A DNA stretch of 64,000 bases, taken from assembly GCA_947168065.1 (NCBI GenBank), contig CAMVKH010000001.1, positions 62,001 to 126,000 of the forward strand. Direction: 5' to 3'. Below are positions 20,483 through 30,487 of this stretch, one piece after another. The first letter of the stretch is position 1. Each line of letters opens with the position of its first letter. This DNA comes from an uncultured Bacteroidales bacterium (GTDB lineage: Bacteria; Bacteroidota; Bacteroidia; Bacteroidales; UBA932). The notes under the pieces are model-generated. The model searched no databases. It worked only from the letters and a program-made list of their open reading frames with translations, and had not been told where the DNA came from. The translations under genes were made by a program, and so were the position numbers.

Positions 20483-23400
20483 TTATTTCAATCTTACAAC
20501 AGCAATTGCGAGGGTTCCGTCTTCCCATTCGACCTCAACCGCTCCGGCAGGATCGGCTTCGAATCGGATGTCGCGGGCAAGGGTCTGCGCACAAACATAG
20601 CTCCCGAAGCGCTCCAGCGCATCCTGCAGCATGGTATTCGGTGCGATGACGACCTCGATACGGTCGGTCACCTCGAAGCCGGCGGCCTTTCGCAGATTCT
20701 GGATGCGGTTAACCAATTCGCGTGCCAGACCTTCTTTCCGGAGTTCATCGGTCAGTTCGACATCGAGCGCGATGGTCAGGGCGCCCTGGGAAGCGACCAG
20801 CCAGCCCGGCATGTCTTCCGACGAAATCTGGTAATCGCCGGGGGTGAGCGTCACGTCGCCGCCCGGGAGAGAAAGGGTATAGGACTCCCCTGCCGCTTCC
20901 GCGCGCTGGACGGAGGAAATCGTCGCCTGGTCGAGCGAAGCGAAGGCAGCTGCGATCTCTTTCATCCGCGGGCCATAGACCTTGCCCAGTGTCTTGAAAT
21001 TGGGTTTGATCTTCTTGGTCAGGATACCCTCGGTATTCTCGACGAATTCCATTTCCTTGACATTCACTTCGGCCAGGATCAGGTCTTTCACGGCGGAAAG
21101 CTGGGTCCGCACCTGCTCCGAGATTACGGGCACGACCATCTTCTTCAGCGGCTGGCGGACAGGAATACCCACTTTCTTGCGGAGGGCAAGCACCATCGAA
21201 GTCGCGGTCTGGGAGAGGCTCACGCGCTCTTCCAGCGCCGCGTCGATCAGGCTTTCATCGGGAGAGGGCATCTGCACGAAGTGGACTGAACAGCCCTCCA
21301 CGGGATGGCAGGGTGCCGTCAGGTCGAGATAGAGCCGGTCGGCGAAGAAAGGCGCGATGGGCGCCATCAGCACGGCCACGTTGTACAGTGCAGCGTAGAG
21401 CGTCTGGTAGGCGGCCTGTTTGTCGGCAGTCATGGCGCCGGCCCAGTAACGTTTGCGGTTCAGGTGGACATACCAGTTGGAGAGGTCGTCGCAGACGAAA
21501 CTCTCGATCAGACGGCCCGCCGTCTTGATATCGTAATCTTCATAAGCGGCGCGAACATCGCGGATCAGGCTGTTCAGGCGGGAGACGATCCAGCGGTCGA
21601 TCTCAGTGAGCGATCCTTGGTCCGGCGTCTGAGGCGTCCAGCCGTCGATGTTGGCGTAGAGAGCGAAGAAGGCGTAGGTGTTGTAGAGCGTGCCGAAGAA
21701 CTTGCGGCGCACCTCATCCACGCCGGCCTCGTCGAACTTGAGGTTGTCCCACGGCTCTGCGTTGGTCAGCATATACCAGCGGAGCGCGTCGGCGCCATAG
21801 GTATCGAGTGCCTTGAACGGATCGACCGCATTGCCCAGGCGCTTGCTCATCTTGTTGCCCGCCTTGTCGAGCACCAGGCCGTTCGAGATGACCCGCTTGA
21901 ACGCAGGTGTCCCGCTGACCATGGTATGGATGGCATGCAGGGTATAGAACCAGCCGCGCGTCTGGTCGACGCCCTCGGCGATGAAATCGGCGGTGGCGCC
22001 GAATCGCTCGCTGCCGAGGTTACGCAGGCCTTCCTGGGCGTACGGCATCGCACCGGAATCGAACCACACGTCGATCAGGTCGCTCTCGCGGACCATCTTG
22101 CGGCCGGTAGGCGACACGAGGAAGATCTGGTCCATATAAGGACGGTGGAGGTCGATGCGCTCGTAATTCTCCAGACTCGGGTCTTTCGGATCGAATCCCT
22201 TGTCTTTCATCGGGTTGCTGGGCATGATACCCGCAGCCACGGCTTTTTCGATCTCGGCATAGAGCTCGGCGGCCGAACCGATGCAGATCTCCTCCTTTCC
22301 GTCTTCGGTACGCCAGATCGGGAGCGGCGTGCCCCAGAAACGGCTGCGGCTCAGGTTCCAGTCCTGGATGTTCTCCAGCCACTGGCCGAAACGGCCCGTT
22401 CCGGTCGAAGCCGGGCGCCAGGTGATCTGGCGGTTGAGCGCCACCATCTCGTCTTTCACGGCCGTGGCCTTGATGAACCACGAATCCAGGGGATAATAGA
22501 GCACGGGAAGGTCGGTCCGCCAGCTGTGCGGATAGCTGTGTACGTGCTTCTGTACCTTGAATGCGCGACCGTCAGCCTTCATCATCACGCAGAGGTCGAT
22601 GTCGAGCGTCCCTTCTTCATCCACGTGCTCGAAGTATTGTTTGTAGCCCGCTTTCACGTAGCGGCCCGCATATTCCTTGTAAGAGGGGTCCACATTCTCC
22701 TTCACGTAGTCGGGATCCAGGTCTTCCAGGCGGCAGAAACGTCCCTGGCGGTCCACCTGGGCCTGCGGGTTGCCGTCCTTGTCGATCGGAAGGATGCCGC
22801 AAATGCCTGCGGCGGCGGCGACGCGCTTGTCGTCGGCACCGAAGGTCGGAGCGATGTGGACGATACCGGTACCGTCTTCCGTGGTCACATAGTCGCCGGG
22901 GATGACGCGGAAAGCGTCGCCCTGCGGTTTGAACCAGGGAATCAACTGCTTGTAGCGGATGCCGACAAGGTCGCGGCCTTTGCAGGAACCCTCAAGCACC
23001 TCGAAAGGAATCTTGCCCTTGGGATTGAACCAGGCACCGACCAGGTCGCGGGCGACAATATAGACAGCCTCCTTGCCCGAGTAGGGATTGGCTGAGCGGA
23101 CGCGCACGTAGTCGATGTCGGGGCCGACGCAAAGTGCCGTGTTCGAAGGAAGGGTCCAGGGCGTCGTCGTCCAGGCCAGGATGCAGAGAGGCAGGCCGTC
23201 CACGAAGAAACGCTCCGAGGCCGCGTCGCGGACCACCTCGAACTGCACCGTAGCGGTCGTATCGGACACGTCCTTGTAGCAGCCGGGCTGGTTGAGTTCG
23301 TGCGAACTCAGGCCCGTTCCGTCGGTCGGCGAATACGGCTGGATGGTAAAGCCCTTGTAGAGCAAGCCCTTGTCGTAAATCTTGCGAAGCAGGTACCAGA

Positions 23401-23875
23401 GCGTCTCGATGTAACGGTTGTCGTAGGTGATATACGGGTCGTCCATGTCCACCCAGTAGCCGATCCGGTCCGTGAGGGAAGCCCATTCCTTCGTGTATTT
23501 CATCACCTCCTTGCGGCAGGTGGCATTGTATTCGGCTACCGAGATCTTCGTGCCGATGTCGGCCTTGGTGATGCCGAGTTTCTTCTCCACGCCCAACTCC
23601 ACGGGAAGGCCGTGCGTATCCCACCCGGCCTTGCGTTCGACATGATAGCCCGTCTGGGTCTTGTAGCGGCACACAGCGTCCTTGATGGACCGTGCCATCA
23701 CGTGGTGGATACCGGGCATTCCATTGGCGGAAGGCGGACCTTCAAAGAAGATGAACTTCGGAGCTCCTTCGCTCATTTTCAGAACGTTGCGGAAAGTATT
23801 ATCGTTTTCCCACTTGGCCCGGATCTCATTGCCCACGGCCACCAGGTCCAGCTTTTTATATTCGGCAAAACTCAT
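20483..23875 (-). CDS. ileS: Isoleucyl-tRNA synthetase
   Basis: 1130 residues, class Ia. The ATP-binding HIGH-type motif appears as GIHHVMAR (residues 55-62, with PPSANGMPG before it), and the KMSKR loop as KMSKRLGN near residue 675. Between them is the CP1 editing domain (about 190-400) with TTPWTLPSNTALCVGP, the part that hydrolyses mischarged Val-tRNA. The anticodon-binding helical domain and a C-terminal extension follow. It is the first gene of an ileS-dksA-lspA minus-strand unit, 39 nt from the DksA-like gene. Confidence 0.97.
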   Translation of the reverse strand: MSFAEYKKLDLVAVGNEIRAKWENDNTFRNVLKMSEGAPKFIFFEGPPSANGMPGIHHVMARSIKDAVCRYKTQTGYHVERKAGWDTHGLPVELGVEKKLGITKADIGTKISVAEYNATCRKEVMKYTKEWASLTDRIGYWVDMDDPYITYDNRYIETLWYLLRKIYDKGLLYKGFTIQPYSPTDGTGLSSHELNQPGCYKDVSDTTATVQFEVVRDAASERFFVDGLPLCILAWTTTPWTLPSNTALCVGPDIDYVRVRSANPYSGKEAVYIVARDLVGAWFNPKGKIPFEVLEGSCKGRDLVGIRYKQLIPWFKPQGDAFRVIPGDYVTTEDGTGIVHIAPTFGADDKRVAAAAGICGILPIDKDGNPQAQVDRQGRFCRLEDLDPDYVKENVDPSYKEYAGRYVKAGYKQYFEHVDEEGTLDIDLCVMMKADGRAFKVQKHVHSYPHSWRTDLPVLYYPLDSWFIKATAVKDEMVALNRQITWRPASTGTGRFGQWLENIQDWNLSRSRFWGTPLPIWRTEDGKEEICIGSAAELYAEIEKAVAAGIMPSNPMKDKGFDPKDPSLENYERIDLHRPYMDQIFLVSPTGRKMVRESDLIDVWFDSGAMPYAQEGLRNLGSERFGATADFIAEGVDQTRGWFYTLHAIHTMVSGTPAFKRVISNGLVLDKAGNKMSKRLGNAVDPFKALDTYGADALRWYMLTNAEPWDNLKFDEAGVDEVRRKFFGTLYNTYAFFALYANIDGWTPQTPDQGSLTEIDRWIVSRLNSLIRDVRAAYEDYDIKTAGRLIESFVCDDLSNWYVHLNRKRYWAGAMTADKQAAYQTLYAALYNVAVLMAPIAPFFADRLYLDLTAPCHPVEGCSVHFVQMPSPDESLIDAALEERVSLSQTATSMVLALRKKVGIPVRQPLKKMVVPVISEQVRTQLSAVKDLILAEVNVKEMEFVENTEGILTKKIKPNFKTLGKVYGPRMKEIAAAFASLDQATISSVQRAEAAGESYTLSLPGGDVTLTPGDYQISSEDMPGWLVASQGALTIALDVELTDELRKEGLARELVNRIQNLRKAAGFEVTDRIEVVIAPNTMLQDALERFGSYVCAQTLARDIRFEADPAGAVEVEWEDGTLAIAVVRLK

Positions 23876-23960: not shown

Positions 23961-24461
23961 ATGGGTGTCATCGATATCGTCATCGTATGCTTTTTCCTGC
24001 CGGCTCTCTTCTTCGGCATCAAGAACGGAATGGTCAAGCAGCTGGTCGCGCTGGCCGTCATCTATTTCGGCATCGTCCTCTCGCTGCGCTTCGCTACGCC
24101 GGTCTCGCAATGGGTTCTGGAGCACGTCAAAATGACGGAATTCTGGGCGAAAGCCGTTTCCTTCATCCTGATTTTTTTTGCAGTTGCGCTGGTATTAAGT
24201 TTATTTGGCCGGATCATCGAAAAAATTATTAAGATTACGCTGCTCGGATGGCTCAACAAACTGCTCGGCGTCGTCATGACGTTTATCTTGACGATCCTGT
24301 TGCTCTCGGTCGTCGTGTACCTCGTCGATTCAGCCAATAACCTCCTGGAATTCATACCGAAAGAGAAACTGGAAGAGTCGCGCTTCTACCCTGCCCTGCT
24401 CCAGCTTTCCCAGGAGGTCTTCCCGCATTTCAAGGAGCTTTTCTCCAAGGGAGAAATTTAA
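23961..24461 (+). CDS. cvpA: CvpA-family membrane protein
   Basis: 166 residues with four predicted membrane helices. It starts MGVIDIVIVCFFLPALFFGIKNG, which is the CvpA/colicin V production signature (a short helix, then the G-x-K/R-G loop). CvpA was named for its requirement in colicin V production in E. coli but is widespread and acts in envelope stability. It happens to lie just upstream of the bacteriocin locus, separated by about 100 nt and a possible independent promoter, so the association may be chance. Confidence 0.88.
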   Translation: MGVIDIVIVCFFLPALFFGIKNGMVKQLVALAVIYFGIVLSLRFATPVSQWVLEHVKMTEFWAKAVSFILIFFAVALVLSLFGRIIEKIIKITLLGWLNKLLGVVMTFILTILLLSVVVYLVDSANNLLEFIPKEKLEESRFYPALLQLSQEVFPHFKELFSKGEI

Positions 24462-24560: not shown

Positions 24561-24716
24561 ATGGAACGCGGACATAGCATACAACGCCTGACCGAACAGG
24601 ATGTGGCAGCCTGGAATCTTCTGCCTTTTTCCCGAACTTCTTCCGGCTTTCTTTATGCATTTCTGCTTGCGGCTACCCTCGGGCTGTCCATCCTGTCGGT
24701 CATTTTATTCATATAG
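24561..24716 (+). CDS. Small single-helix membrane protein; candidate bacteriocin immunity protein
   Basis: 51 residues: a polar N-terminus MERGHSIQRLTEQDVAAWNL, then a Ser/Thr/Gly-containing linker and one long hydrophobic helix (about 29-51, ending ILSVILFI). There is no Gly-Gly motif, so it is not an export substrate of the neighbouring transporter. Codon choice looks like that of the surrounding genes. It is the first gene before the C39 transporter, 83 nt away on the same strand. Immunity proteins of two-peptide bacteriocins are often small membrane proteins next to the structural genes, so immunity is the best guess, without direct evidence. Confidence 0.55.
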   Translation: MERGHSIQRLTEQDVAAWNLLPFSRTSSGFLYAFLLAATLGLSILSVILFI

Positions 24717-24799
24717 CAAGCGCGAGGGAGCGTGCGTGAGATGGTCTTGTGGGCGAGAAGACACGTGCGGGAGAGCTCCCTCTTTTTACCTGGAATACG

Positions 24800-26866
24800 A
24801 TGAAAACAGCCATCAGACAACACGACGTATCCGACTGTGCAGCTGCCTGCATGGCTTCCGTGGCACGACACCACGGACAAGATATCCCCTTGTCGGTCAT
24901 CCGGGAGGCTTCAGGCACATCCAGCGCGGGAACCAGCATCAAAGGTATCCTGGACGCCTGCCCGCAGATCGGCTTCCGCGCCGCAGCCTTCAAGTCCGAC
25001 GACAAACAGCTTGAAAGCCTGTGCGGCATCCAGGATCCCGTCATCCTGCACATCGTCAATGCCCGCGGTGACCTGCATTTCGTCGTTCTGGAGGGTCTGG
25101 CGGGCCGATATGCCCGCGTCATGGATCCGGAATACGGCAAGGTCAGGCGCATCCCCACGCAAGAACTGCGGGAAGCCTGGACGGGTTACCTGGTCACCAT
25201 GGTTCCGGACCCGGACCTTGCCGGGGAGCCGGGCCCGAGCAGCGGGAAGAAGGATCTGACCTCCTGCCTGAGGCTGATTCCGGGAAAGGAATATGTCCTG
25301 ATGATGGCCGGTTCGGTCGTCTATATCGTTGCCGGCATCTGCACCGCCCTCTTCCTGCAGCACATCATCGACAAGGTCCTGCCCGCGGGCGACCTGCACG
25401 GGCTGGCGGCTACCGGCATCCTGATGCTCGCCGTCATGCTCTGCACACTGCTGGTCGGCTACGGACGTGTCATCTACGCCCTCCGGCTGACCATCTCGCT
25501 CGACAGCCAGCTCATCCTCCGATACCTCAGACACCTGTTCCGGCTGCCGGCCTCGTTCTTCTCCCGGCGCGGCACCGGGGAACTCAATGCCCGGATCAGC
25601 GATGCGGCCAAGGTCCGGTCGTTTCTCATCGACGGCCTTTCGACCCTCCTGACCAGCAGCCTGATCCTGGCCGTCTCGTTTACCCTGATGTTCACCACCC
25701 ACTGGCGGCTCTCCCTGCTTATGCTGACATTCATCCCTATCTACCTGATCCTGTATCTGGTGGCCGACAGGGTGAACACCCGGGTAAACCGAGACATCAT
25801 CGAACAGTCCGCCGCCTTCGAGGAGCGGACCGTGGAAGGCATCACGGCCGTCCGGACGGTCCGTTACTTCGGACAGGGAGAACGGCTGCTCCGTAACATT
25901 GAAAAAGAATATGTGCTGCTCGCCCACAGGCTTTTCCGGGGCGGACGCTGGGCAGGCGGCTTCGCCTCGGCTGCCGACGGCATCGCCAAAATGCTGACGC
26001 TCACGCTGCTGACAGCCGGATCGATGTATATCTTCGCCGGATCCCTTACGGTCGGTGCATTGGTTTCCTTCTACTCGCTGACCGCCTGGTTTTCCGCGCC
26101 GCTCGGCGACCTTGTCAAACTCAACGACAATCTGACGGAAGCCCGCATCGCCTGGGAGCGCCTCAGCGACATCACCCAGCTGCCGCCGGAAGAGACCGGA
26201 ATCGGCGATTTCTGTCCGAAAGCGGGCGACGACCTGATCTTCGACCATATCGATTTCTCCTATCCCGGAGCGCCCCCGCTCCTGCAGGATTTCTGTCTCA
26301 CACTCCAGGCGGGACGCATCACGGCCGTCCAGGGACCGAGCGGTTGCGGAAAAAGCTCACTGGCCGCCCTGCTGATGCGCGACTACACGGTCCGGCACGG
26401 TGTCATCCGGCTCGGGCCGCACGACATCCGCCTTTTCTCGCTCGAATCCTGGCGCCGCTTCGTATCGATCGTCCCGCAGGAGCCGCAGCTCCTGAGCGGA
26501 TCCATCCTCGAAAACGTGGCGTGCCTGGACCCTGATCCCGACGTGGAAAAGGTCGTCCGCCTGCTGGAAGAACTGGACCTGGGTCCTATGGTGCGCGAGC
26601 TGCCGATGGGCCTTTTCACCCGGATCGGCGAACGGGGCTGTCTGCTCTCCGGCGGACAGCGGCAGCGCATCGCCCTGGCCCGCGCCCTTTACCGGGAGCC
26701 GAAGGTCCTGATTCTCGATGAAGTCACATCCTCCCTGGATGAGGCATCGCAACGCTGCCTGCTCGAACGGGTCCGGCGCTTCCGCGACGAGGGCGGCACA
26801 GTGATGATGATCACCCACAAGAAAGACAATGCCGCCCTGGCCGACCACATCGTGACACTATCGTAG
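24800..26866 (+). CDS. Peptidase C39-containing ABC exporter (bacteriocin maturation and export)
   Basis: 688 residues. The N-terminal C39 protease (about 1-135) has a complete triad: Cys13 in VSDCAAAC with the preceding Gln7, His93 in GDLHFVVL and Asp109 in VMDPEYG. Six membrane helices occupy about 160-450. The nucleotide-binding domain has Walker A GPSGCGKS at 512-519, signature LSGGQRQR and Walker B VLILDEV. Such PCAT transporters cut Gly-Gly leaders on the cytoplasmic side and export the mature peptide. The start is the ATG at 24800, as upstream codons to 24749 lack a start and do not belong to the domain. Two Gly-Gly peptides, TolC and HlyD follow directly. Confidence 0.93.
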   Translation: MKTAIRQHDVSDCAAACMASVARHHGQDIPLSVIREASGTSSAGTSIKGILDACPQIGFRAAAFKSDDKQLESLCGIQDPVILHIVNARGDLHFVVLEGLAGRYARVMDPEYGKVRRIPTQELREAWTGYLVTMVPDPDLAGEPGPSSGKKDLTSCLRLIPGKEYVLMMAGSVVYIVAGICTALFLQHIIDKVLPAGDLHGLAATGILMLAVMLCTLLVGYGRVIYALRLTISLDSQLILRYLRHLFRLPASFFSRRGTGELNARISDAAKVRSFLIDGLSTLLTSSLILAVSFTLMFTTHWRLSLLMLTFIPIYLILYLVADRVNTRVNRDIIEQSAAFEERTVEGITAVRTVRYFGQGERLLRNIEKEYVLLAHRLFRGGRWAGGFASAADGIAKMLTLTLLTAGSMYIFAGSLTVGALVSFYSLTAWFSAPLGDLVKLNDNLTEARIAWERLSDITQLPPEETGIGDFCPKAGDDLIFDHIDFSYPGAPPLLQDFCLTLQAGRITAVQGPSGCGKSSLAALLMRDYTVRHGVIRLGPHDIRLFSLESWRRFVSIVPQEPQLLSGSILENVACLDPDPDVEKVVRLLEELDLGPMVRELPMGLFTRIGERGCLLSGGQRQRIALARALYREPKVLILDEVTSSLDEASQRCLLERVRRFRDEGGTVMMITHKKDNAALADHIVTLS

Positions 26867-26877
26867 GAACAAAAATA

Positions 26878-26891
26878 TCCGTGCGCACGGA
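26878..26891. promoter_or_regulatory. Perfect 14-bp palindrome before the bacteriocin peptide genes
   Basis: TCCGTGCGCACGGA is a perfect inverted repeat in the 81-nt gap between the transporter stop and the first peptide start, followed by AAAAA. It could be an operator for peptide expression or a processing/pausing hairpin that sets the peptide-to-transporter ratio. The stem is too short and lacks a T-run for a strong terminator. Confidence 0.45.
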
Positions 26892-26947
26892 AAAAGGTCA
26901 TTTCCAGACACCTGAAAGGATGGAAACCACAAAAAAAACGCTAACCG

Positions 26948-27142
26948 ATGGAAGAAACATTACTGTATGGACGAGGTTGGAGAGAACTGACTTCTTCCGA
27001 GCTCCAGATCCGGGGCGGAACCGACAAGAACATCTTCGTCAAGGTATTCGAGAAGATCCGCAACCTGATCGACACGATTGCGGATTATCTGCCGAATCTC
27101 CTGAAGGGAATCAAGGATGGATTTTTTGGATCAAGCAGTTAG
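26948..27142 (+). CDS. Gly-Gly-leader bacteriocin precursor, peptide A
   Basis: 64 residues. The leader is residues 1-24, ending SSELQIRGG, which resembles the LSxxELxxIxGG consensus with the E-L pair one residue closer to the cut. Cleavage after Gly24 gives a 40-residue peptide starting TDKNIFVKVFEK: amphipathic, with regularly spaced Ile/Leu/Phe and Lys/Asp, near-neutral (six basic, five acidic) and without Cys. Near its end is GIKDG, a GxxxG motif. This layout fits one half of a class IIb (two-peptide) pore-forming bacteriocin. It starts 81 nt after the C39 transporter and ends 18 nt before peptide B. Confidence 0.82.
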   Translation: MEETLLYGRGWRELTSSELQIRGGTDKNIFVKVFEKIRNLIDTIADYLPNLLKGIKDGFFGSSS

Positions 27143-27145
27143 AAG

Positions 27146-27153
27146 AAAGGAGG
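27146..27153 (+). promoter_or_regulatory. Strong Shine-Dalgarno site of peptide B
   Basis: AAAGGAGG, 7 nt before the ATG at 27161, matches the 16S tail almost fully. Most genes in this window have no such site, so it supports the small ORF being translated and perhaps at a high level. Confidence 0.7.
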
Positions 27154-27160
27154 ACTAGAC

Positions 27161-27316
27161 ATGAGAACCGTAGCAATCAACGAGGCCGCTCTCGTCTGGG
27201 GCGGCGTGGACAAAAAAGCACAGGACGCCCTCTATACGATCGGCTACATCCTGGGTGTAATCGCACGTTTTATCGGCGCCCTTTTCCTGTTCAAGAAGGA
27301 TAAACCGACTGCCTGA
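27161..27316 (+). CDS. Gly-Gly-leader bacteriocin precursor, peptide B
   Basis: 51 residues. The very short leader MRTVAINEAALVWGG (15 residues, Glu at -8, Val at -4, Gly-Gly at -2/-1) suits C39 cleavage. The 36-residue mature peptide starts VDKKAQDALYTIGYILG, with a GYILG (GxxxG) motif in a hydrophobic helix and a basic C-terminus LFKKDKPTA; net charge about +3, no Cys. Together with peptide A it looks like a complementary pair: a short cationic membrane-spanning helix and a longer amphipathic helix. It is too short for routine gene finders. An intrinsic terminator follows 12 nt after the stop. Confidence 0.82.
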   Translation: MRTVAINEAALVWGGVDKKAQDALYTIGYILGVIARFIGALFLFKKDKPTA

Positions 27317-27328
27317 CAAGCGAAGACC

Positions 27329-27354
27329 GGGGCTCTCCCGAGAGAGCCCCTTTT
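27329..27354 (+). terminator. Terminator/attenuator after the peptide genes
   Basis: GGGGCTCTC, loop CCGA, GAGAGCCCC, then TTTT. It lies between the peptide genes and the TolC gene, which starts 5 nt later. It probably lets the peptides be made in excess over TolC and HlyD while allowing some read-through. Confidence 0.8.
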
Positions 27355-27358
27355 CTCT

Positions 27359-28660
27359 ATGGAAAAACGGATCCTGACATTGATACTCCTCCTCGCGGCA
27401 GGCTGGCTGCAGGCACAGGAAGCCTGGCCGCTCGAGCGCTGCATCCAGTATGCCCTGGAACACAACACCGGCATCCGGGAACAACGCATCCAGATCGATC
27501 TCCGGAAGGCGGAACTCCGCCAGATGCAGACGGGTCACCTGCCCGTGCTGCGCGCCGGCGTAGCCCAGGAATTCAACTGGGGCCGGAGCGTGGACATGCA
27601 GGAACTGGTGATTATCAAAAACAAACTCACGCAGGCTACCGGCGCTACGCTGACCGCCACAGCTACGCTGTTCGAAGGTTTTGCGCAACATTACGGCCGG
27701 CTGGCGGCCAAAAAGGCCGTCGAGGCCGCACGGCAGGATGCCCGTTCGCAGGACGAGGCCCTGACCATCGACGTCACCCGCGCCTATCTGCAACTGATGC
27801 TGGCCAGACAGATCCTCTCCTACACGGAAGAGAGCCTCTCCGCCATCGTCCTGCAGCGGGAGCGCACGGCCCTGATGGTGGAAGCCGGCAGCCAGCCAAA
27901 GACAGCCCTGAGTGAGATCGAGGCACAGGTAGCCGCTGAAAAAGCCGCCATGGTGGAAGCGTCCTGCCGGGTGCGTACCGCCACACTGGCATTGACACGG
28001 CTGATGAATCTTCCGCCCGGTGCGGCATTCGCCGCCGGTGACGCCTTCGAGCAGGAAGAGGTCCTGTCGCGTGTTCCGCTCATCTCTGAAACGCAAATGG
28101 ACGACTATATCCGGCAAGCACCGGAACTCCTCAGTGCCCAGGCTTCGCTCGAACGCTTGAGCCACCAGCAGACCCGGGTCCAGGCAGCTTTCCTGCCGAG
28201 TCTGCGGCTCTCGGCCAGTTATGGAACCTACTACAGCAGTGCTGCCGGACAGCCTTTCCGTACCCAGATTGACGAGAACCGAAACCCTTCGCTCAGTCTC
28301 CAGCTCGATATTCCGATATTCCAGGCATTTCAAGCCGCTTCCCAACTCCGGAAAAGCCGCCTCGCCTGCGACCTCGCCCGCCTGGGCGTGGAAAAAGTCC
28401 GTACGCAGCTGGCCGACCGGATCCGCAGCGCAGCCATCGAAGCGGACAACTGCTGCCAGCAATATCTCTCCTCCGAAGAGACCCTGCGGGCCATGGAGAG
28501 TCTGCTCGCGGTCATGGAGGCCAAATACAATCTGGGCGCAGCATCGGCCGTGGACTACATCCTGGCCCGCAACCATCATTTCAAGGCGGTTTCGGACTAC
28601 CTGCAGGCGAAATGGCAATACCTGTTCCAGCTCAAGCTGCTGGAGCGCTATCGCTTATGA
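27359..28660 (+). CDS. TolC-family outer-membrane efflux protein
   Basis: 433 residues. Signal peptide MEKRILTLILLLAAGWLQAQ, then the TolC repeat pattern: long coiled-coil helices with LERCIQYALEHN at the start of repeat 1 and FLPSLRLSASYGTYYS leading into the second barrel half. It would form the outer-membrane trimer channel. Its position directly after the peptide genes and its 4-nt overlap with the HlyD gene make it the outer-membrane part of the bacteriocin exporter. Confidence 0.9.
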   Translation: MEKRILTLILLLAAGWLQAQEAWPLERCIQYALEHNTGIREQRIQIDLRKAELRQMQTGHLPVLRAGVAQEFNWGRSVDMQELVIIKNKLTQATGATLTATATLFEGFAQHYGRLAAKKAVEAARQDARSQDEALTIDVTRAYLQLMLARQILSYTEESLSAIVLQRERTALMVEAGSQPKTALSEIEAQVAAEKAAMVEASCRVRTATLALTRLMNLPPGAAFAAGDAFEQEEVLSRVPLISETQMDDYIRQAPELLSAQASLERLSHQQTRVQAAFLPSLRLSASYGTYYSSAAGQPFRTQIDENRNPSLSLQLDIPIFQAFQAASQLRKSRLACDLARLGVEKVRTQLADRIRSAAIEADNCCQQYLSSEETLRAMESLLAVMEAKYNLGAASAVDYILARNHHFKAVSDYLQAKWQYLFQLKLLERYRL

Positions 28661-29817
28661 AAACATTCAAAGACTTGCCCCGAAGCGGGAAACTGATGCT
28701 GGCAGCCGCAGGGGTGCTCGTGTTGCTGCTCCTGATCCGGCCGGGGCGGAACACCCGCACCGAAGTTTCGGTCTGCCAGCCGGAGCGGCGCGACCTGGTC
28801 GAATCCGTTCCCGCTTCGGGAACCGTCCGCCCGGTCGTCGAAGTCAAGATCTCGCCCGACGTCTCGGGCGAAGTAGTGGAAATCTGCGCCAAGGAAGGCG
28901 ACCACGTCGAAGCAGGCGACCTCATCCTCCGGATCCGGCCTGACCTCTACCTCTCCCAGGTAGAGCAGGCCAGCGCCTCGCTCGGCACGCTGCGGGCCCA
29001 ATTTGCCCGGCAGCGGGCGGAAGAACGCCAGGCACGGGCCAACCACGAACGGAACCAGCGCCTGTTTGAGCTCAATGCCATTTCAGCTGCCGAGCTCCAG
29101 CACTCCCGCACAGAACTCGACATCGCCCACAGCGGCCTGCAGGCGGCCGAATTCGCCGTCCGCAGCGGCGAGGCACAACTCAAGGAAGCCCGGGAGAACC
29201 TGCTCAAAACCACCCTTTACGCCCCGATGGACGGCATTATCTCCCGCATGGACGTAGAGAAGGGCGAGCGAGTCGTCGGAACCAGCCAGATGCCTGGTAC
29301 CGAGCTGTTCCGCATTGCCGATTTCAGCCGGATGGAAGTGGTGGCCGATGTCGGAGAGAGCGACATCGTACGCATCGAGACGCGCGACAGCGTCGAGGTT
29401 GAGATCGACGCCTATCCGCGGCGGAAGTTCCGCGGTGTGGTGACCCAGATTGCAAACTCGGCAAAAGTTGCTAACTTTGAAGTCCGGATCGAGCTGCTGC
29501 CCGACTCGCTGAAGTTCCTTCCCGGCATGTCGGCCGCCGTGCGGATCATCACGGACCGGCGCTGCGCCTGTATGACCCTTCCGCTTGAAAGCATCTTCCT
29601 TCGCGACAAAGACCCTTTCGTCTGGACCGTGGATCAAGATGACAAGGCCAGGGCCGTCGGCGTGAACACCGGCATCCAGGACCTGGACCGGATTGAAATC
29701 CGGGACGGTCTCTCCGAAGACCAGCGGGTCGTCGTCGGCCCGACAGATGCCGTCGGCGAGAAACTCAAAGAAGGACAGAAGCTCAAACCGACCGCCAAGA
29801 TACTGCACCATGAGTGA
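28657..29817 (+). CDS. HlyD/RND-type periplasmic adaptor
   Basis: 386 residues: an N-terminal membrane helix (about 13-31, LMLAAAGVLVLLLLI), a lipoyl/barrel-sandwich domain with VSGEVVEICAKEGDHVEAGD (its halves flank the hairpin), an alpha-hairpin (about 100-190), and beta-barrel/membrane-proximal domains. The start is the ATG at 28657, overlapping the TolC stop. The frame upstream belongs to TolC. It would bridge the C39 ABC exporter and TolC. It overlaps tsaB by 8 nt, so a housekeeping tRNA-modification gene has become the last gene of this operon. Confidence 0.9.
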   Translation: MKTFKDLPRSGKLMLAAAGVLVLLLLIRPGRNTRTEVSVCQPERRDLVESVPASGTVRPVVEVKISPDVSGEVVEICAKEGDHVEAGDLILRIRPDLYLSQVEQASASLGTLRAQFARQRAEERQARANHERNQRLFELNAISAAELQHSRTELDIAHSGLQAAEFAVRSGEAQLKEARENLLKTTLYAPMDGIISRMDVEKGERVVGTSQMPGTELFRIADFSRMEVVADVGESDIVRIETRDSVEVEIDAYPRRKFRGVVTQIANSAKVANFEVRIELLPDSLKFLPGMSAAVRIITDRRCACMTLPLESIFLRDKDPFVWTVDQDDKARAVGVNTGIQDLDRIEIRDGLSEDQRVVVGPTDAVGEKLKEGQKLKPTAKILHHE

Positions 29818-30487
29818 ACGAATCCTGATGATTGAAACCAGCACGGAAAGCTGTTCCGTGGCTGTCTGCGACGGCAAGGCCATCCTGGCCAGCCGCCTCG
29901 ACGAAACGCCTCGCCAGCAGTCCTCGATGCTGGTCCCCTATATCGTAGATGTCCTCCGGGAAGCCGGGCTGGAGAGCCGTGACCTCGACGCCGTGGCCGT
30001 CAGCGAAGGCCCCGGCTCATACACCGGTCTCCGCGTGGGCGTATCCACCGCCAAAGGCTACTGTTTCGGAGCGGGCAAACCGCTGATCGGTGTCGATACG
30101 CTCCAGATCCTCGCCTGCCAGGCAGAAGGGTCTTACGACCGTATCATAGCCATGATCGACGCCCGAAGGATGGAAGTCTATGCCGCCCCCTTCGACGGTT
30201 CAACCCGCAAGACAGGTCCCACCGAAGCCGTCATCCTCGATGCCGACAGCTACCGGAAAGAACTCGATGAAGGCACCGTACTCTTCATCGGCACGGGTAT
30301 CCGCAAATTCCAGGACATCTGCCACCACCCCAACGCTTCCTTCCGGGAGTGTCCGCCCATGGCTTCCGCCATGGCCGCACCGGCGCTGGAAGCCCTGCAA
30401 AAAAAAGAGTTCAAAGACATTGCGTACTTTGAACCCTTCTATCTGAAAGAATTCGTGGCCGGCGTGACCAAGCACGCCGTTCTCTGA
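29810..30487 (+). CDS. tsaB: tRNA threonylcarbamoyladenosine biosynthesis protein TsaB
   Basis: 225 residues with the ASKHA actin-like fold. It opens MSERILMIETSTESCSVAV and has the family motif SEGPGSYTGLRVG near residue 65. TsaB scaffolds TsaD in making the t6A modification at position 37 of ANN-decoding tRNAs. The start at 29810 overlaps the end of the HlyD gene; the frame extends upstream but only inside HlyD. Confidence 0.93.
   Translation: MSERILMIETSTESCSVAVCDGKAILASRLDETPRQQSSMLVPYIVDVLREAGLESRDLDAVAVSEGPGSYTGLRVGVSTAKGYCFGAGKPLIGVDTLQILACQAEGSYDRIIAMIDARRMEVYAAPFDGSTRKTGPTEAVILDADSYRKELDEGTVLFIGTGIRKFQDICHHPNASFRECPPMASAMAAPALEALQKKEFKDIAYFEPFYLKEFVAGVTKHAVL

Follow-up and report, generated by a model that had tools for sequence, protein, structure and literature searches.

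Class IIb bacteriocins such as lactococcin G, plantaricin EF, and thermophilin 13 are encoded as an adjacent pair of Gly-Gly-leader peptides with a C39 exporter, and the peptides bear GxxxG-type motifs and form amphipathic helices. These features are shared by a locus that we describe here from an uncultured bacterium of genus Bact-11 / Ca. Cacconaster, family UBA932, on a 64,000-nucleotide stretch of contig CAMVKH010000001.1 (positions 62,001 to 126,000; hereafter the window). Between cvpA and tsaB, and entirely on the + strand, the locus runs in the order small open reading frame (smORF), C39 ABC exporter, pepA, pepB, hairpin, tolC, and periplasmic adaptor; all of these parts had been listed in a preliminary description of this DNA, and all were found. 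Our analysis suggests a core two-peptide secretion locus that would probably act on other bacteria in the manner of a class IIb two-peptide bacteriocin, and it adds, as the strongest new finding, a structured RNA element directly 5' of pepA. If the functional reading is correct, a core, paired, and exported peptide system would be a hallmark of UBA932 gut bacteria and might yield narrow-spectrum agents active against bacteria of the gut.

The likeness to class IIb extends in one genus to a CPBP-type gene, but the locus differs from that class in its Gram-negative Bacteroidota host, its lack of a significant sequence match, its core inheritance, and an activity that is predicted. It also differs in having no regulator genes seen alongside, a structured RNA ahead of the peptide genes, and a resident TolC and adaptor behind them. 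As there is no sequence match and activity is only predicted, we have not filed the locus as a member of class IIb. Class II microcins, which use colicin V type export, are single peptides known mainly from Enterobacterales and employ an HlyD-type adaptor; the locus in the window has instead a pair of peptides and an adaptor of predicted RND/MacA type. Common to both are the Gly-Gly leader, the C39 ABC exporter (PCAT), and the logic of adaptor plus TolC (PMC10352776).

Two further systems invite comparison. The Cdz system of Caulobacter (CdzC/CdzD/CdzI; PMC5380434) likewise joins a Gram-negative pair of small GxxxG proteins to type I export, with a small membrane protein nearby. CdzC, at 86 amino acids (aa), and CdzD, at 84 aa, have extended glycine zippers, and their N-termini have been compared with RTX signals, while CdzI has three predicted transmembrane segments (PMC5380434); the mature peptides considered here are 28-51 aa long (44 loci) with one short motif each. 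Immunity has been shown for CdzI (PMC5380434), whereas for the small membrane protein of our locus it is only proposed. Bacteroidetocins (PMC6671954, PMC8546649) share with the locus a Bacteroidales host, a Gly-Gly leader, a C39 ABC exporter, and the absence of an obvious immunity gene. A bacteroidetocin is a single 42-aa peptide with four cysteines, accompanied by a thiol oxidoreductase and a five-transmembrane-segment protein (PMC6671954, PMC8546649), in contrast to the mostly cysteine-free pair found here, in which cysteine occurs in 1/44 A and 6/44 B peptides and in neither mature peptide of the window. No oxidoreductase gene lies between cvpA and tsaB in the window. Titles and abstract openings of the open-licence papers among the matches listed mention no two-peptide system from Bacteroidota.

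The peptide pair and its exporter

The exporter gene (24800..26866, with an alternative GTG start at 24749) encodes the Pfam domains C39 (E 1.8e-24), ABC_membrane (5.1e-40), and ABC_tran (4.3e-26), the C39 peptidase domain occupying residues 4-137 (24809..25210). Its catalytic residues are intact, as had been proposed in the preliminary description: Q7, C13, H93, and D109 are invariant in 47/47 aligned exporters, an alignment that leaves out 10 of the 57 exporter-bearing stretches compared here (the window and L032-L087). The closest solved full-length relatives of the exporter are "ABC-type bacteriocin transporter" chains (E 5.8e-97). The genome to which the window belongs is 77% complete and contains one C39 domain above the Pfam cut-off and one pepA match.

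The 64-aa precursor encoded by pepA (26948..27142) consists of a leader (26948-27019) and a mature peptide of 40 aa with a GxxxG motif at 27107-27121; that of pepB (27161..27316) has 51 aa, with a leader at 27161-27205 and a mature peptide of 36 aa carrying GxxxG at 27242-27256. The order exporter-A-B recurs in 45 of the 57 stretches, the other 12 comprising three (L056, L070, L074) that stop less than 600 nucleotides (nt) past the exporter and nine whose C39 exporters are different and more distant. A further 40 loci were picked by their match to a pepA model, and in all 40 an exporter lies ahead of A and a Gly-Gly reading frame behind it; the pepB model matched in 39 of these at E 6.2e-5 or better, L208 being the exception. 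Gly-Gly formed part of the peptide search rule, and GxxxG served as a filter for the first locus set only, to which two B peptides without GxxxG were added, so that the invariant GxxxG glycines of the first alignments are partly built in. The pepA-picked loci were taken with no motif filter, and among them GxxxG/A in A and G/AxxxG in B are each present in 40/40. The earlier proposal of two conserved, paired Gly-Gly-leader peptides with GxxxG-type motifs thus holds in both locus sets, and when relatives were checked for loss of either peptide or for broken frames, the peptides were found to be conserved. Three of five B leaders in genus g21 end in Ala-Gly rather than Gly-Gly. An in-frame TGA in the pepA matches of one genus proved, when the copies were read, to be the terminal stop read through by the search.

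Both mature peptides are under purifying selection. Across 15 loci the ratio of nonsynonymous to synonymous change (pN/pS) is 0.154 for mature B and 0.182 for ileS, and 0.315 for mature A and 0.352 for the exporter; mature B is thus constrained like ileS and mature A about like the exporter, these values being only relative because synonymous sites are far diverged. Helical moments exceed those of shuffled sequences (A 0.62 versus 0.38; B 0.52 versus 0.36), so both peptides are amphipathic, and net charge is positive for B in 41 of 44 loci and for A+B likewise in 41. AlphaFold (AF2) predicts for pepB a helix over residues 18-46, spanning the GxxxG motif and confident over residues 21-40, and for pepA a helix over residues 16-61 at low confidence (mean pLDDT, the predicted local distance difference test score, 63.8). 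No bacteriocin family of Pfam or NCBIfam matches the peptides at a useful score, and PDB matches to them include no bacteriocin chain.

In the mechanism that we propose, the C39 domain of the exporter would cut both leaders after Gly-Gly during export, and the resident TolC and adaptor would carry the peptides across the envelope. The two helices may then come together at their GxxxG-type faces to form a heterodimer that inserts in a target membrane.

Inheritance, immunity candidates, and the role of the pair

A close full-length homologue of the exporter (49-100% identity) was found in 37/40 genomes of the genus, the window's own included; in the other three (G007, G012, G020) the exporter region is probably unassembled, as these genomes also lack a full tsaB. 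Mantel correlations with ileS protein distances over 30 loci are 0.51-0.64 for the genes of the locus, 0.575 for cvpA, and 0.71 for tsaB. Each gene of the locus follows ileS roughly as closely as cvpA does; the locus is core and vertically inherited in the genus. Within the family, the pepA model matched 142/249 genomes at E 0.01; these fall in 12/25 genera, and the other 13 gave no match. Outside the family it matched 0/294 other genomes of the class at E 0.001. Nine of the 294 gave weak matches to the pepB model, each within a reading frame of 323-375 aa, and these were judged to be chance. By these searches the peptide system belongs to the core of the genus, has a patchy distribution in the family, and is unseen outside it. 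Empty sites exist in the family, since cvpA directly adjoins tsaB in G054 and G100; G046 has tolC, adaptor, and tsaB lined up with a CvpA-like reading frame (named by eye), with neither exporter nor peptides.

The named pepB relatives come from Bacteroidales/Bacteroidia genomes, nearly all of them metagenome-assembled and several from rumen, omasum, or horse, and include five "Candidatus Cacconaster" species. Cacconaster corresponds to GTDB genus Bact-11 of family UBA932 (PMC8957277), and UBA932 figures in published work on the guts of cattle, yak, horse, and other animals. A mobile-element origin was also considered, and no pepB relative was confirmed in IMG/VR or phage records. Plasmid matches to the exporter comprise 3731 records, all below 60% identity, the best 8 of which are rhizobial-plasmid C39 exporters at 35% identity; one rhizobial plasmid record lists, next to its exporter, a transposase, an adaptor, and hypothetical proteins that include one of 53 aa. 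In genome G055, three other short Gly-Gly-leader reading frames lie upstream of tolC (L148 37-786), and the exporter next to cvpA (L074) shares only 36% identity and is preceded by a 397-aa reading frame.

The smORF (24561..24716) encodes 51 aa with a single C-terminal hydrophobic segment. Its pN/pS is 0.665 (11 loci). Some genomes that carry the peptides give no credible match to it, which weakens the case for it as an immunity protein; it is a weak immunity candidate, and no gene can be firmly named as dedicated to immunity. In genus g21 (L080, L151-L154), pepB and tolC are separated by a gene for a CPBP/Rce1-type membrane protein in 5/5 loci read, with Pfam PF02517 matches of E 1.5e-15 to 2.2e-13 in 3/3 tested. 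Proteins of this type at bacteriocin loci have been described as "likely involved in self-immunity" (PMC10059821).

Several observations weigh against a bacteriocin-like role. The strict GxxxG motif is present in 36/40 A and 24/40 B peptides of the pepA-picked loci and fails in the remaining 4 and 16. Mature A is positively charged in just 25/44 loci, and the charge of A+B spans -9 to +10. The NCBIfam lactococcin G model matches 2/44 A peptides, with a best E of 0.034 that is not significant. Seven genomes, all of genus g15, keep A and B with no adjacent tolC or adaptor and with tsaB directly behind the peptide genes: six among the pepA-picked loci, and G053. The smORF has no match at E 1 in G004 and G008 and no credible one in G027 (genomes 60-89% complete), although the peptides there are intact, and no smORF was seen upstream in the g15 and g5 loci read. 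Finally, bacteriocins are usually accessory, and core vertical inheritance together with strong purifying selection, as found for this locus, is unusual for them. Core conservation raises the question of what would make a whole genus retain a bacteriocin-like pair, and it leaves room for signaling and for self-directed roles.

The strongest competitor, though in our judgment an unlikely one, is that the pair serves as a secreted signal or in kin recognition, leaving by the same export route and being read by cells of the same group. The near-universal exporter in the genus, the strong conservation of mature B, and the want of a firm immunity gene would all suit such a role, yet no kinase, regulator, or receptor gene is seen next to the locus, and paired amphipathic helices of 28-51 residues with GxxxG-type faces would suit membrane insertion better than receptor binding. 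Clearly less probable is that the pair lyses the producer's own population by programmed lysis or autolysis, in the manner of the gonococcal Nap peptides. Gram-negative Gly-Gly peptides that lyse their own cells have been reported (PMC11798529), bacteroidetocins inhibit their own producers (PMC6671954), and there is no universal immunity gene at the locus. However, the Nap island is described as horizontally acquired (PMC11798529) and this locus is core, and the constant placement of an exporter ahead of the pair in the pepA-picked loci also argues against self-lysis. A class IIb-like action on other bacteria is the reading that we carry forward.

A structured RNA element ahead of pepA

Directly 5' of pepA, a hairpin and an H-type pseudoknot form a structured RNA element that is newly seen here and was not reported in the preliminary description. 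In the window, alignments and covariation place the hairpin, with its self-complementary GCGC loop, at 26878..26891 and the pseudoknot at 26895..26926 (S1 26895-26898/26910-26913; S2 26901-26906/26921-26926), with the 3' end of the latter 21 nt ahead of the pepA ATG. The gap between the ABC gene and pepA in other loci has the same layout, a hairpin, often with a GCGC-type self-complementary loop, followed by the pseudoknot, and in 73/80 loci where the descriptor found a pseudoknot, 15-25 nt separate the end of its last stem from the pepA start.

Covariation supports the structure. A sequence-only alignment of 31 family sequences has 81.2% of cells paired (69.0 +/- 1.0 when shuffled) and 67 cells with both-sided changes (22.0 +/- 4.0 when shuffled), the latter seen in 15/16 pairs, and 0/500 shuffles reach any of five measures. 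When partners were slid by 1-3 columns, at most 44.1% of cells were paired and 24 showed both-sided changes; the shuffled controls lose the relatedness of the sequences, while the slides keep it. The genus alignment gives 89.7% paired against 79.9% shuffled and 29 both-sided cells against 9.3, with further pair types, one of the five measures, not above the shuffles. S1 is only 67.7% paired on the 31-sequence alignment, partly through an uncorrected register shift. RNAalifold, run on a separate alignment, recovered the hairpin and S2 unaided.

A covariance model with the hairpin and S2 as pairs was built from the 31 sequences, one of which is from this genus. Searched against 34 other loci of the genus (404 kb), it gave 25 matches at E<=5, of which 23 fall immediately 5' of pepA and on the same strand (that of L056 being placed at pepA by a pepA fragment). 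These 23 include the best 22 matches, and 15 have E<0.1; several of the others are not significant alone, and the pepA site was missed in 11/34 loci. In whole genomes the model matched 13/61, 11 of them at pepA (G026 being part of the training set); the two off-locus matches were rejected because they fall within a coding region. No second copy was found before another gene in 37 genus and 24 other-family genomes, by a search that also missed most pepA copies. The window's own copy is placed by the alignments, as it was unmatched in the whole-genome search, and the near-identical copy in L032 was missed in the search of the 34 loci.

The pseudoknot descriptor scored >=20 in 79/84 regions 5' of pepA, but it did so as well in 24/44 pepB, 23/44 mid-ABC, and 27/44 post-pepB controls and in 14-27 of 84 dinucleotide shuffles. 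Because the descriptor alone does not discriminate, we base the case on covariation and on the covariance model. Folding the window sequence by itself gives a z of only -1.57, and such a fold cannot show a pseudoknot. The Rfam scan of the window returned only three tRNAs; over 26800-27000, two snoRNA matches (E 3.4 and 7.6) lie upstream of the element and far below their gathering scores. The word "pseudoknot" is absent from the relevant open-licence papers among the matches listed (best 8 of 45). With covariation support and no Rfam match, the pepA RNA is a clear example of a pseudoknot linked to a single small-peptide operon. By eye, the hairpin center is often self-complementary (GCGC, TGCA, GGCC, CCGG, CGCG; for example in L072, L196, L198, L200, and L212), which could reflect a DNA palindrome or a kissing-loop dimer.

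A second hairpin, with a T-rich tail, follows pepB (27329..27350) and may be a partial terminator or an mRNA 3' end. It had been described as an internal terminator; the hairpin itself is kept in most of the rumen clade, but the T-tail is weak in many relatives, and for this reason "internal hairpin" is the safer term. Since this hairpin also stands behind pepB in the rumen clade, RNA structures there bracket both peptide genes, and the pepAB message may be processed or separately stabilized. The Bacteroidales -7 box has the consensus TAnnTTTG; it was found within 400 nt upstream of the exporter in 1/34 loci and in the gap between the ABC gene and pepA in 0/34, and no promoter was assigned.

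The 5' RNA and 3' hairpin could together let the peptide segment be expressed or stabilized at a level different from that of the exporter. We doubt that the RNA element acts as a ligand-sensing riboswitch and think it more likely to be a fixed structure that sets expression. A compact H-type pseudoknot with covarying stems near a start codon would suit a riboswitch, but the stem sequences vary freely, only S1 and the hairpin loop being nearly conserved, and no fixed ligand pocket is obvious; that no second copy precedes another gene in the 61 genomes is weak as a counterargument, as the search missed most pepA copies as well. Least probable of all is a structural or envelope role for the peptides, or an action on the animal host: the system is core in the genus and kept in about half of the family genera sampled, yet the peptides have no useful match to a structural-protein family or solved chain, and the other genera lack a pepA match. 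Returning to the bacteriocin-like reading, an extended and more tentative form of it, to which we give slightly less than even weight, is that an ancestral two-peptide membrane-active system of the family UBA932 has become core in this genus, with its own dedicated RNA family, which has no known relatives, controlling the peptide genes, and that the bacteriocin-like pair would now be a lasting trait under RNA control instead of an accessory weapon.

The tolC-adaptor-tsaB block and flanking genes

Behind the peptide genes lie a gene for a TolC-type outer-membrane channel (27359..28660; Pfam OEP, E 1e-37) and the adaptor gene (28657..29817). The preliminary description had named these as TolC and HlyD genes. 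The TolC assignment stands, but the adaptor scores 61.9 against a cut-off of 208.65 for type_I_hlyD (TIGR01843) and passes RND_mfp (TIGR01730) with 197.9 against 94.9, which marks it by model score as RND/MacA-like. A relative of the adaptor adjoins tsaB in 10/28 loci outside the family (the best-matching 28 of 58 non-family genomes). Of these ten regions, eight have tolC (L246, L248-L254), L245 has none, and L247 begins too close to tell; none has a match to the exporter or to the window's peptides. The three genes tolC, adaptor, and tsaB recur together as a block across several families of Bacteroidales. Most simply, the exporter and peptides would adjoin, and may use, an older tolC-adaptor pair; because the block occurs elsewhere without the peptides, we only infer an export role for TolC and the adaptor.

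Among the 40 pepA-picked loci, tolC lies within ~2.5 kb in 33, tsaB directly follows pepB in the six g15 loci noted above, and L183 shows neither. Four of the seven g15 genomes were searched for adaptors and TolCs elsewhere, and only distant ones were found. The description of the locus as a self-contained operon was therefore not borne out, given that the tolC-adaptor-tsaB block occurs without a C39 exporter in other families, that seven genomes lack an adjacent tolC and adaptor, and that no immunity gene is firm.

The flanking genes are well conserved in the genus. On the right, tsaB (29810..30487, + strand; TIGR03725, E 6.5e-50) is present in 33/35 genus loci, the remaining two stopping at contig ends. 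On the left, the cvpA-like gene (23961..24461, + strand; Pfam Colicin_V, E 4.1e-25) is a neighbor in 33/35 loci, and its Colicin_V name gives no evidence of a bacteriocin. Beyond it on the - strand lies a gene that we take to be ileS (20483..23875), a name given from its sequence and general knowledge of the family, which is present in 34/35. Elsewhere in the window, a tRNA-Pro with anticodon AGG, which is uncommon in bacteria, is predicted at 1048-1123.

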